Shown piece after piece: positions 27,190 to 30,497 of a stretch of DNA of 64,000 nucleotides. This DNA is from Streptomyces sp. NBC_01262. GTDB taxonomy: Bacteria; Actinomycetota; Actinomycetes; Streptomycetales; Streptomycetaceae. The notes beneath the pieces were generated by a model, which worked only from the letters and a program-made list of their open reading frames with translations, searched no databases and was not told the origin of the DNA. A program made the translations under genes and the position numbers. The stretch covers positions 806,001 through 870,000 of the forward strand of contig NZ_CP108462.1 in assembly GCF_036226365.1 (NCBI RefSeq). The letters run 5' to 3'. Position 1 is the first letter of the stretch. Each line of letters starts with the position of its first letter.

Positions 27190-27330
27190 CAGGAGACAGT
27201 ACCGGTCACTTGACTGCTCCCCTCCCCAAGGGAGGGGATTCCTCACCCTCCAGGGCTGATCGGGATTTCTAGCTCACGCCGCCAGGTGGGGCAGCGCCCC
27301 ACCTGGTCTTCCGCGATCAGCACTAGCCGG
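27190..27330 (-). ncRNA. Predicted omega RNA with guide from flanking DNA
   Basis: In TnpB systems the guide RNA comes from the end of tnpB and the right end of the element, with its guide in the adjacent host DNA. Here the region contains the tnpB 3' end, the GC-rich hairpin 27218-27238 and the terminal AGTCAA. The predicted 20-nt guide is the minus-strand sequence from 27209 to 27190, upstream of the MFS gene. The 5' limit is arbitrary. Confidence 0.4.
27218..27238. repeat. Terminal hairpin of the IS200/IS605-type element
   Basis: TCCCCTCCC (27218-27226) pairs with GGGAGGGGA (27230-27238) around a 3-nt loop. It lies 36 bp after the tnpB stop codon, and in this position it would form part of the right end and of the omega RNA. 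Confidence 0.75.
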
Positions 27331-28494
27331 GGCCAGACCAGCCCGGACCAGCATCACGCGGGCGGAGTTCTTGTCCCTGGGGGACACGACTGCGCACGCG
27401 GTGCAGGTGTAGGTACGTTCCGAAAGAGGAAATGCGTGCTTGGTTCTCGCTCCGCACGACGCGCAGTCCATCGTGGTGTGCGCGGGGTGCACTAGGTGCA
27501 CCGTCCGGCCGTGCTTCCGGGCCATCTCGACCAGCGCCGCCTTCGTCGCGCCGATCGCAGCGTCGGCCGCCTTGCGGGCCATGGTCGACTTGGCGAGGAA
27601 CTTCGGCTTGAAGTCCTCGACCGCGAGGCGGTCGTGGTCGCGGACGACCTTCTTGGCCCATTTGCGGCCGGTGTCCTGCCGCTGCCGTGCGGTCTTCTTG
27701 TGCAGCTTCGCGGCCTGCCGCTTCGCCTGGCGGTAGCCCTTCGAACCAGCCTGTCCACGCTTCGGCTTCCGCCGGGCCATCATCCGCTGATAGTGGGCAA
27801 GCCGCTGGGCGGCCTTCACCCCGTGCCCGGCATGGGGAAGATCGTGGGTGTCGCTGGTGGTGGTCGCGGTCTCCTTCACGCCCCAGTCGACGCCGATCAC
27901 CGCACCGGTCCTGGGTAGCGGCTCCACGGTCGCCGGTACAACGAAGGAGCAGTACCAGTGCCCGACGCTGTCCTGATAGACGCGGACGCTGGACGGGTCG
28001 ACGGGGAGTTCCCGCGACCACACCACCGTCAGGGCGATGCCTCCCGCGAGATATAGCTTCCCGTCCTTCAACCGGAAGCCGCGCCGCGTGTAGTTCAGGC
28101 TCGGCCGGGCTTCCCGCTTCTTCTTCCACCTAGGCATCCCGGCCCGTCGTGCCATGGGCAGCCGGTCCTTGATGTCTTTTTGCGCCTTGGCGCGGGACTT
28201 GCCGAAGTCCCGGACGAGCTGCTGTTGCGGGACGCTGGCGCCTTCACGCAGCCAGGTGTTCCTCTTGCGGGCCTCGGTCAGCATCTTGTCGAGCTGCGCC
28301 GGACCGCAGGTCTGCCTCTCGCTGGTGGCCTTGTTGCGCGCGTGCACCTGCTTCGACTTGGCGACGCACTCGTTCCACACCCAGCGGCACCTGTCCCACT
28401 CCGCTTCGAGCACGGCGCGGGCGGTGGACGACACGCGAAGCCGGAAAGTCCACCGGGCGTGCCCAGCGTCCTCGGCTGACTGCGTCGTCGTCAT
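27274..28494 (-). CDS. tnpB: RNA-guided endonuclease TnpB
   Basis: A 406-residue TnpB of normal length. The N-terminal helical part (1-180) carries RARYNP-type recognition segments such as CRWVWNECVAKSKQ. The RuvC catalytic residues are all present: Asp in VIGVDWGVKETAT (~201), Glu in LAVEDFKPKFLAKS (~291) and Asp in SPRDKNSARVML (~377). The zinc ribbon shows CASCG and CTAC (~352-372). It should therefore be an active omega-RNA-guided nuclease rather than one of the inactivated regulators. The start at 28494 is 28 bp from the divergent RHH start. No transposase TnpA is visible, so mobility needs one in trans. Confidence 0.93.
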   Translation of the reverse strand: MTTTQSAEDAGHARWTFRLRVSSTARAVLEAEWDRCRWVWNECVAKSKQVHARNKATSERQTCGPAQLDKMLTEARKRNTWLREGASVPQQQLVRDFGKSRAKAQKDIKDRLPMARRAGMPRWKKKREARPSLNYTRRGFRLKDGKLYLAGGIALTVVWSRELPVDPSSVRVYQDSVGHWYCSFVVPATVEPLPRTGAVIGVDWGVKETATTTSDTHDLPHAGHGVKAAQRLAHYQRMMARRKPKRGQAGSKGYRQAKRQAAKLHKKTARQRQDTGRKWAKKVVRDHDRLAVEDFKPKFLAKSTMARKAADAAIGATKAALVEMARKHGRTVHLVHPAHTTMDCASCGARTKHAFPLSERTYTCTACAVVSPRDKNSARVMLVRAGLAPASADRGRPGGALPHLAA

Positions 28495-28522
28495 GGCTAC
28501 ACGGTAGCTATATGATGGCTGC
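28495..28522. promoter_or_regulatory. 28-bp divergent promoter between tnpB and the RHH gene
   Basis: The spacer contains TAGCTATATGAT. On the plus strand TATGAT (28511-28516) ends 6 nt before the ATG, fitting a leaderless transcript; on the minus strand TATAGCT lies about 12 nt before the tnpB ATG. The TAGCTA core is palindromic and could be the operator for the RHH protein. Neither gene has room for a normal leader. Confidence 0.45.
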
Positions 28523-28729
28523 ATGGTCAACTTCAACGTTCGCTTCCCCGATGAGCTGATCGCACGCGTGCGCATCCAGGCGACTGCGGACCGGCGGTCC
28601 ATCAACTCCGAGATCCTGCATCTGCTTGAGGTCGCTCTCGCCACCGTCGGGGAGGACGCCGAATCGCCCGGCGGCAATTCGGCTGCCCCTGCCCCGCTAC
28701 GGGGGAAGCCGGATTCCTCCCCGGCCTGA
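28523..28729 (+). CDS. Arc-like ribbon-helix-helix DNA-binding protein within the tnpB element
   Basis: A 68-residue protein. Residues 3-41 match the Arc/MetJ ribbon-helix-helix fold: a beta strand FNVRFPD, then helix ELIARVRIQATADR, a turn, and helix SINSEILHLLEVALATV. The tail after 45 is unstructured, and its stop codon lies inside the terminal hairpin of the element, which shows that it belongs to the element. A repressor of tnpB or omega-RNA promoters is the natural guess because the two genes share a 28-bp divergent promoter. It could instead be an orphan antitoxin-like protein; no toxin gene is present. Confidence 0.8.
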   Translation: MVNFNVRFPDELIARVRIQATADRRSINSEILHLLEVALATVGEDAESPGGNSAAPAPLRGKPDSSPA

Positions 28730-28734
28730 AGGCC
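28692..28734. repeat. Paired small hairpins at the left end of the element
   Basis: CCCCG-CTA-CGGGG (28692-28704) is followed by GGCC-TGAA-GGCC (28723-28734). They lie at the end opposite to the tnpB 3' hairpin, and the second contains the stop codon of the RHH gene. Subterminal hairpins are the recognition structures of IS200/IS605 transposases. Confidence 0.6.
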
Positions 28735-28748
28735 AGGGCATCCTCCGA

Positions 28749-30497
28749 TTACACGGTGAACAGCCGGTCGAGGAAGGGGTTCCGGAAGAGCCGGTGCGGG
28801 TCCAGCCGGTCCAGGATCTGCGCCGCCTCGTCCCATCCGGGGCCCTGCCCGTCCGTGAACGAGGCGGGCACGGCGGTGCCGAAGACCTCGGGTTCGGCCC
28901 AGGCGGCCTCCTCCGTGTAGGCCCAGCCCTTGGACCACTCGACGCGGGTGAGCGCGTGGCCGCCGTCGTAGGTGTCGAGCAGGAAGCGCTCCAGCTCCCG
29001 GAAGAAGGCGGGCGCGTCCGGGGTGCCGGGGAGGGTGAGCACGTCCAGCCATACCGCGGTGTCCCACTCGGGGTGGTCGGCCCGGGGCCGCAGCGCGGAC
29101 AGCAGCGGGGGCTGCGCGCCGGTCGAGTCGGCCTCGGCGGGGTCGTCGAGGCCGGTGACCCGGATCTCGACCTGGCCGTTGACGGGAAAGCGCCCCTGCG
29201 CGGTGTACGCGGCCAGCCGTTCGCGGTAGAAGGCGGTGAACTCCGCGACGACGCGCTGCACCTGGTCCCGCGAGGTCAGCACGGCGTAGCCGTTCGCCGT
29301 CTCCCGCAGTGTGGTCGGTTTGATGTAGAGCAAAGTGTTCTTGGAGGGGCCCCAGATGTCGGCGGACACGGTGGTGGTGAGGCCGAGGACGGACGCGGCG
29401 AGCTGGGCCTGGCCCAGCGCCGGCGCGAGATACCAGGCGGCGTCGGACACCAGGGTCCCGGCGAGCCGGGCGACGGCGGTCGGGACGTTGTCGGAGAAGG
29501 GGTAGTTGTACGGCGAGGTGACCCGGCGCGAGGTCAGCGGGCGGTTCGGTGCCACGCTCCACACCTTCAGCCAGGGGAATTCGGTGTACGCGAACCAGAT
29601 CGCCTCGGCCCGGCCCGACTCGTCCAGGAAGCTCGCGAAGGTACGGTCGCCGTCGCCGCCGGGGGCCGCGAAGAGCTCGGCGGCAGGGATGTCGGTGCGG
29701 CTGAGGCAGCGCAGGGAGGAGTTCTCCCCCACGCGCAGGACGACTTCGGTGACCAGGGCCCGGCCGAGGTGCGTGAGGAGCGCCGCGCAGTCCGGGTCGT
29801 CGCGCTGGTACGTACGCAGTGCGTAGGCGCCGCTGTCCTCGTCCCACACCACCGCCGTCAGCGACAGCACGCGATTGCTGAGCGAGCCGTAGGTCTGGCC
29901 GGGAAGCCGGCTCTCGCCCTCGGCCGGTACGGCGGTGCCGTGGGCGTCGATGGCCAGTGCGCCGCCGATCGTGATGTCGCCGGGCGCGGGGGCCGCGGTG
30001 ACGCCGAGGCCGTGCTCCTCCAGGTAGCCGAGCAGGGTCTCCATCGAGGCGCCCGCGCCGGCCCGGACGGCGGCGAGGCCGGTGGACCCGGCGGGCTCCA
30101 GGGCCAGGCCGGTGAGGTGGGCGGTGGTGTCGACGAGCAGCAGCGGCGCCCCGGCCGCGGTCCCGGCCGGGATGGTCAGCGGGGACCAGCCGTGGGCGTA
30201 ACCCCGGGCGCGCACCGTCCAGCCGTTCTCCCGGGCCCAGTTGACGACGGCGACCACTTGGTCCGGGGTGCCGGGTGCGCAGGCCCACAGCCCGTCGGCG
30301 CTGATCTCGCCCACCCAGTTGCGGTACGCGGACCGGTAGAGCCCGGCGTCCTCCGGGAATCCGGGCAGGTCCGCGGCCGCCGCTTCCTGTGCCATGGCGA
30401 GGGGGGCGACGGCCGCCACCATGCCGGCCGCGCCGAGGGAGGCAGCTGTGCGCAGGAATGCCCGGCGGGTCTCTTCACGTCTGCGTATTCGAGTCAT
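28749..30497 (-). CDS. Secreted type II (covalent-FAD) cholesterol oxidase
   Basis: A 582-residue VAO-family flavoenzyme that aligns throughout with the Brevibacterium type II cholesterol oxidase, which oxidises and isomerises cholesterol to cholest-4-en-3-one. A Tat signal (RRAFLRT, residues 11-17, then a hydrophobic stretch to AQEAAAA) exports it folded. FAD-domain landmarks are VRARGYAHGWSPLT (the His that binds FAD covalently), ITIGGALAIDAHGTAVP and TYGSLSNRVLSLTAVVWD; the substrate domain carries EIRVTGLD, whose Glu and Arg match the catalytic pair. The IS element adjoins its stop codon: the last residues and stop may come partly from the element. Confidence 0.88.
   Translation of the reverse strand: MTRIRRREETRRAFLRTAASLGAAGMVAAVAPLAMAQEAAAADLPGFPEDAGLYRSAYRNWVGEISADGLWACAPGTPDQVVAVVNWARENGWTVRARGYAHGWSPLTIPAGTAAGAPLLLVDTTAHLTGLALEPAGSTGLAAVRAGAGASMETLLGYLEEHGLGVTAAPAPGDITIGGALAIDAHGTAVPAEGESRLPGQTYGSLSNRVLSLTAVVWDEDSGAYALRTYQRDDPDCAALLTHLGRALVTEVVLRVGENSSLRCLSRTDIPAAELFAAPGGDGDRTFASFLDESGRAEAIWFAYTEFPWLKVWSVAPNRPLTSRRVTSPYNYPFSDNVPTAVARLAGTLVSDAAWYLAPALGQAQLAASVLGLTTTVSADIWGPSKNTLLYIKPTTLRETANGYAVLTSRDQVQRVVAEFTAFYRERLAAYTAQGRFPVNGQVEIRVTGLDDPAEADSTGAQPPLLSALRPRADHPEWDTAVWLDVLTLPGTPDAPAFFRELERFLLDTYDGGHALTRVEWSKGWAYTEEAAWAEPEVFGTAVPASFTDGQGPGWDEAAQILDRLDPHRLFRNPFLDRLFTV

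Follow-up and report, generated by a model that had tools for sequence, protein, structure and literature searches.

Within the window, as we call the whole stretch of 64,000 nucleotides that was analysed from the complete 9.7-Mb genome of Streptomyces sp. NBC_01262 (contig NZ_CP108462.1, positions 806,001 to 870,000), a mobile element of 1,546 bp at 27210-28755 is flanked by genes for a transporter and an oxidase. It is of the IS200/IS605 type and holds an intact tnpB gene and, divergent from it, a gene for a ribbon-helix-helix (RHH) protein, rhh, without a tnpA gene. Read in the direction of tnpB, it consists of TTCAC beside a hairpin, the divergent rhh, a 28-bp spacer, tnpB, a second hairpin and a final GTCAA (Table 1). 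Its hairpin ends, its end sites of the TCAC/TCAA type and the absence of tnpA place it in the tnpB-only group of IS200/IS605 elements. Judging from the anatomy of this locus and of its relatives, we consider it likely that the element encodes its own autorepressor of tnpB.

Table 1. Features of the element, with their positions in the window, strand and basis
Feature	Position	Strand	Basis and remarks
Whole element	27210..28755	-	Left end 28755, right end 27210; homology to a second copy (L002), ends of copies at different sites, empty relative (G014)
Target site and presumed target-adjacent motif (TAM) TTCAC, beside the left end	28756..28760	-	Sequence; (T/G)TCAC at the left end of four clean-ended copy pairs
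Left-end hairpin, rhh stop codon in loop	28719..28738	-	Sequence and folding
Right-end hairpin region, ending GTCAA (27214-27210)	27214..27239	-	9-bp stem
tnpB, for an RNA-guided nuclease of 406 aa in which D/E/D and the four-Cys zinc motif are intact	27274..28494	-	Profile match, motif residues
rhh, 68 aa, Arc-like RHH protein	28523..28729	+	Domain in residues 1-45; residues 46-68 are translated left-end DNA, predicted disordered
Shared spacer, predicted operator with three direct repeats spaced by 11 bp	28495..28522	.	Sequence; layout recurs in L016, L031, L044 and L065
Predicted tnpB -10 box TACCGT, 12 nt before ATG	28501..28506	-	TAnnnT at that offset in 50/72 RHH-bearing loci
Predicted -10 box of rhh (TATGAT), 12 nt upstream of ATG	28511..28516	+	Same offset in 30/72 loci

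The TnpB protein matches the guided_TnpB profile NF040570 with 239.5 bits (cut-off 100), and it has D203, E293 and D374 together with Cys344, Cys347, Cys364 and Cys367, which, going by the family motif, we take to be the catalytic and zinc-ribbon residues; all of them are also kept in the second copy of the element. The RHH protein exceeds the cut-off of the Pfam Arc family (PF03869, 36.8 bits against 20.4), and the TGA codon of its gene (28727-28729) is located within the hairpin of the left end, in the loop of 4 nt. The region of that hairpin as a whole folds no better than most shuffled sequences (z -0.67). A hidden Markov model (HMM) built from five Y1 transposases (TnpA) of the same genome detected none in the RHH-bearing loci scanned, which comprised all but L223-L243, L271, L306 and L307, and among 80 near TnpB loci its sole match was a fragment in L003, outside the element. 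A first-pass annotation made from the letters alone had described this two-gene element with the same borders, an intact nuclease, a stop codon within the terminal hairpin and no transposase, and in all these respects it was borne out. Its suggestion that the RHH gene stands in place of tnpA did not survive: close relatives without RHH equally lack tnpA, so rhh is no stand-in for it. The genome has 13 TnpBs above the cut-off, six of them adjoining a Y1 tnpA, and the window TnpB is about 25-32% identical to those of other regions where tblastn gave a match, and only about 25-31% to the Y1-bearing ones. A scan for guide RNAs with Rfam found nothing above chance, the best match being sot0042 at 27218-27344 on the minus strand (14.9 bits against 88).

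The borders of the element follow from comparison with its copies. A second copy with the same layout is present at 6.57 Mb of the same genome (L002), with identities of 79% for DNA, 80% for TnpB and 56% for RHH. The ends at 27210 and 28755 match those found in four of six aligned pairs of similar copies, the left end following TCAC and the right end finishing with TCAA; two pairs are without clean ends. In a separate tally of end sites, TCAC was demanded beforehand, so that tally is no independent proof of the target site. In one genome (G314), two pairs of rhh-tnpB copies that are 99.6% and 99.7% identical occupy different sites with sharp ends, which indicates that rhh and tnpB move as one unit. 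In a relative (G014), both flanks are adjacent without the element, and the exact insertion junction is not fixed by this comparison because a 64-bp tandem repeat sits there. Four contigs of G014 (4, 66, 311 and 325) match the left end alone or the right end alone, over about 60-115 bp, and these stretches are possibly small non-coding derivatives. The element sits where the adjacent oxidase gene terminates (3' end), and the last codons and stop of that gene (F-T-V-stop) come in part from the left end of the element (28749-28760).

How regularly rhh accompanies tnpB was assessed from both partners. The named close relatives of the element are mostly Streptomyces. The RHH model matched 30 of the 80 near TnpB loci (the best 80 of 366 TnpB relatives found): divergent to tnpB, 19 have an intact rhh and six a remnant (L009, L027, L032, L033, L070 and L082), and in five the match is to left-end DNA only. 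In a sample of the family, 45 of 394 genomes hold 70 RHH places, 60 of which have TnpB or a piece of it beginning no more than 400 bp away on the other strand, two being cut by a contig end and eight standing without; among the 60, L150 has a C-terminal TnpB piece only and several other TnpBs are broken frames. When places with E < 1e-10 and uncut by a contig end are considered, 56 of 57 lie beside a divergent TnpB. These counts support the view that rhh is a recurrent part of such tnpB-only elements, and they agree with its earlier description as an accessory. One genome (G041) has seven RHH places, many at contig ends, which suggests a multi-copy element.

At the level of the class, 28 RHH places were found in 22 of 394 genomes, 21 of them beside TnpBs, some of which are very distant from that of the window. 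All three matching plasmid records have TnpB beside RHH, two of them annotated as 'transposase' and 'Arc family DNA-binding protein', and the RHH search of phages gave no match. Viral contigs hold 12 RHH relatives, two beside TnpB and ten without; in six of these contigs (L310, L311, L312, L313, L314 and L317) two divergent Arc-like RHH genes face each other without TnpB. With a broader alignment (A4), at least 225 of 293 genomes of the order sample were matched, mostly weakly and to other RHH genes; of 22 loci checked, many repeating earlier places, 21 have a TnpB match and L232 has none. At L232:1465-1731 (-), a strong RHH relative stands without a TnpB match across 3.2 kb, possibly as the leftover of an element. 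In the phylum sample, again with A4, 22 loci from outside the class and five from the own family had no TnpB match within about 1.5 kb, 30 loci being fetched per search and the TnpB model being built from near relatives, so that it may miss distant TnpBs.

The RHH protein has a recognizable and constrained domain. Its structure model is confident for residues 1-40 and of low confidence beyond, and it matches antitoxins (Rv0298 and TacA1 best), AmrZ and Arc, with Z scores of 5-6 that are modest given the small fold; Arc is matched at Z 5.7 with 35% identity over 43 residues, and AmrZ is 31% identical over the fold. The median ratio of non-synonymous to synonymous rates (dN/dS) of the core is 0.48 in 1718 pairs, and it lies below 1 in 97% of them. 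For the translated tail, a median dN/dS was not computable and pN/pS is 0.86, a weak constraint on which its candidacy as a functional part was rejected. Since many loci encode proteins of 52 aa, which end without reaching into the left end, we take the tail to be a probable by-product.

The spacer that separates the two genes carries direct repeats 11 bp apart, GGCTACA (28495-28501), AGCTATA (28506-28512) and GGCTGCA (28517-28523). By shuffling, the repeats of this spacer have a p of 0.043; over 48 loci, internal spacer repeats have a mean z of 2.10, with p <= 0.05 in 20/48. The first-pass annotation had proposed a 28-bp spacer serving both genes and centred on a palindromic TAGCTA. The length, the sharing and the resemblance to an operator were upheld; the palindromic core was replaced by the repeats, TAGCTA being the middle one of the three, and the direct-repeat reading is preferred because other classes keep the spacing without TAGCTA. 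From this layout, the repeats probably lie inside two overlapping promoters. TAnnnT, the pattern of a -10 box, was tallied in 72 of 74 deduplicated RHH-TnpB loci, L187 and L156 being left out as they have no readable contact triplet (see below). On the tnpB side it is found exactly at -12 in 50/72, with at most two occurrences at any other offset, and on the rhh side at -12 in 30/72, at -7 in 12 and at -13 in five. Since the -10 boxes sit 12 nt before each ATG, both genes are probably leaderless. In those relatives without RHH that have ATG at the start of the match (30/55), TAnnnT occurs at -13 in 12 and at -12 in five. The segment specific to each RHH class is made of the six bases between the -10 box and ATG.

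This class-specific segment goes with the protein that is encoded beside it. Three residues of the RHH beta strand, which we take to be the DNA contacts from the positions of those in Arc, define triplet classes with distinct spacers: N-N-R with GGCTAC, K-N-R (KLNLR) with GGCCCC, H-N-R with GGTCCC/GGGACC, R-A/S-R with GATGYCA and TAGCATC, and R-T-R with two types, TAGCACC and ACCAC. This was examined in 65 loci, L048, L111, L129, L142, L149, L150 and L152 also being set aside for an uncertain tnpB start or the lack of a usable spacer. Spacers that belong to the same triplet are more alike at every level of TnpB identity: below 65% identity, their similarity is 7.59 (113 pairs) against 5.85 for different triplets (430), and below 45% it is 7.88 (17 pairs) against 5.91 (303). 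None of 2000 label permutations reached the difference. A natural swap is seen between L161 (NVNVR) with GGCTACA and L162 (HVNLR) with GGTCCCA, whose tnpB starts are alike, and L107/L133 and L153 (KLNLR) have GGCCCCA in common with TnpBs that are 25% identical. Later loci agree by eye, namely L226 (H-N-R, GGTCCC and GGGACC), L228 with GGCATCATTTTAGC as in L208, and L271 with L111. This is an indirect sign that the RHH protein would bind DNA as dimers, probably by its beta ribbon.

A mechanism can be proposed on this basis. The RHH protein would most likely bind the half-sites of the 28-bp spacer, 11 bp apart, as tandem dimers. For tnpB and rhh alike, the predicted sites are placed downstream of the -10 box and ahead of the start codon, so that the bound protein would close the two leaderless promoters. 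TnpB would be kept at a low, self-limited level. In known TnpBs, the 3' end of the tnpB transcript gives rise to the guide RNA, and if it does so here too, the level of guide RNA would follow. The predicted sites span the promoter region that the two genes have in common, so the nuclease is probably under the control of the element itself.

A number of observations weigh against autorepression by an RHH protein that reads its own operator. The permutation test ignores the relatedness of the loci, and some low TnpB identities stem from truncated frames, such as that of L185. Matching the pairs for RHH divergence as well reduces the effect: when helix identity is below 65% and TnpB identity below 75%, the difference is only 0.47 (1/2000 permutations), and with RHH helix identity below 45% little of it is left (5.92 against 5.67 for all TnpBs) except where the TnpBs have diverged too (6.75 against 5.83 for TnpBs below 70%). 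The R-T-R class has at least two operator types, L025, L022 and L138 fit poorly, and it may just be that rhh and the spacer are carried along together. Of the 80 near TnpB loci, 55 have no RHH and six more have a decayed one, which makes it dispensable. Close RHH pairs are weakly constrained, with pN near pS, and orphans exist, namely L159 and the strong RHH gene of L232.

The same locus could also be read as an antitoxin-like brake, in which the RHH protein inactivates TnpB by contact and binds DNA merely to adjust the proportion of the two proteins, as is the case for type II toxin-antitoxin systems. RHH domains are common in antitoxins, which are also the top structural matches, and the two genes form a tight pair. 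However, the region past the domain, which usually holds the toxin, is here translated left-end DNA, weakly constrained and predicted to be disordered, and it is missing from the many 52-aa proteins; moreover, type II antitoxin profiles remain below cut-off (FitA-like 23.7 against 27, ParD-like 17.1 against 23) and the genes are divergent, not operonic, all of which renders such a brake unlikely. Activation of tnpB, such as through recruitment of RNA polymerase or displacement of a different repressor, might be suspected from -35 regions that look weak on inspection in several classes, and RHH proteins are able to activate; yet a position downstream of the -10 boxes, which these sites have, is typical of repressors, and we regard activation as decidedly unlikely.

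That rhh should be a passenger in the service of the host, or a decaying frame kept open by left-end DNA, is very unlikely. The six decayed copies and the origin of the tail would fit such a history, but the core is constrained in nearly all pairs, and the complete N-N-R three-repeat operator pattern has three occurrences in 394 genomes, every one in a tnpB-rhh spacer, in a search for the full pattern and not for single half-sites; this confinement speaks against the complete site having targets in the host. Least probable of all is a role mainly in transposition, such as handling of the left end or aid to a TnpA acting in trans. Although rhh ends within the left-end hairpin, copies move without a tnpA of their own and the genome analysed here has Y1 TnpAs elsewhere, relatives with the same ends do without RHH, and the class-specific repeats are located in the promoter spacer, with none at the ends. 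Repression of tnpB by the element's own RHH protein remains the reading that we prefer.

The nearest relatives of the element may be controlled differently. A quick tree of TnpBs, with 124 rows, puts that of the window in a starred clade of 12. The absence of the RHH gene from homologous copies, on which the first-pass annotation had staked its idea, is found for these nearest TnpBs (ten of the other 11 have none, and one has a remnant) and not for the element type. Compared with L003, L006 and L011, the window element aligns in its left end and in tnpB but not in the rhh core and spacer; L004 aligns in tnpB only. Nine of the ten RHH-less clade rows carry TGTCRGT-N9-TAnnnT before tnpB, eight at -28/-29 and L013 at -53 because its TnpB match starts later. 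This motif is presumably the RecA-NDp promoter of PafBC. Among near relatives, RecA-NDp-like motifs are found in 17/55 loci without RHH (including L003, L004, L005, L006, L008, L011, L013, L015 and L020) and in 2/74 with it (at -68 and -71), with 0.01 expected by shuffles and 3 in 2440 flank windows. As a control, the strict pattern occurs 31 times in the genome of the window, against once for its reversed form; one occurrence is immediately upstream of recA, and others are close to uvrB, ruvC, ung, ogt and the gene of a DinG/YoaA-like helicase. The role of this promoter in the DNA damage response by PafBC and its position at -26 are described in two articles (PMC8223512; PMC11804915). In addition, a LexA-like box is present at about -130 to -170 before the tnpB match in 18/55 loci without RHH, five of them with GAACN4GTTC, in 0/74 with RHH and in 6 of 2440 flank windows; these loci include L010, L019, L037, L038, L042, L067, L069 and L076. 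The consensus given for LexA of S. venezuelae in one study is tCGAAC-N4-GNNCGa (PMC9380542).

Because the nearest TnpBs lack RHH and nine of ten have a RecA-NDp-like promoter in that place, control of tnpB looks like an exchangeable cassette. We tentatively propose that in this tnpA-less actinobacterial TnpB clade the tnpB promoter may be an exchangeable cassette of about 140 bp that is located between a constant left end and tnpB and comes in three largely exclusive types: an operator together with its RHH autorepressor, a DNA-damage promoter of the RecA-NDp-like (PafBC) type, and a LexA-like box. With the RHH cassette of the window element set in a clade of damage-type promoters, TnpB activity would then be either self-limited or called up on DNA damage. 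Several points weigh against the damage branch: the loci share ancestry, the start of tnpB is uncertain in 25/55, the LexA-like boxes are distant from the start, and the PafBC motif of M. smegmatis seemed unconserved in S. venezuelae, according to the same study (PMC9380542). The RHH-less clades and their damage motifs are a lead and no proof.

TnpBs are among the commonest genes and are ancestors of Cas12, and to our knowledge little is known of how the levels of these nucleases are restrained. An element-borne repressor whose contact residues and operator are linked by a readable code would offer a direct test, natural swaps of specificity and a small regulated promoter, and if the damage-promoter relatives are real, cutting by TnpB would be tied to the DNA-damage response. 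We found no mention of the RHH-TnpB pair in searches of the open-access literature. With tnpB-only IS200/IS605 elements (the IS1341-like group), the window element shares TnpB, hairpin ends, the type of end sites and the lack of tnpA, and it adds a divergent RHH gene with a matching promoter-operator. The divergent layout of two genes is also known from tnpA-tnpB elements of the IS605 type, one of which is present in the same genome (tnpA at 7201380-7201742 on the minus strand, tnpB at 7201820-7202908 on the plus strand), but here the divergent partner is a DNA-binding protein rather than a Y1 transposase. The RHH protein resembles Arc of phage P22 and AmrZ in its RSxNSE motif, its score above the Pfam Arc cut-off and its overall identity to them, and the operator subsites of Arc also lie one turn apart; in contrast to both, its partner gene encodes an RNA-guided nuclease on a mobile element. 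Finally, TldR and other TnpB-derived regulators likewise tie a TnpB locus to regulation, whereas in the window the nuclease residues of TnpB are preserved and regulation would fall to a second protein.

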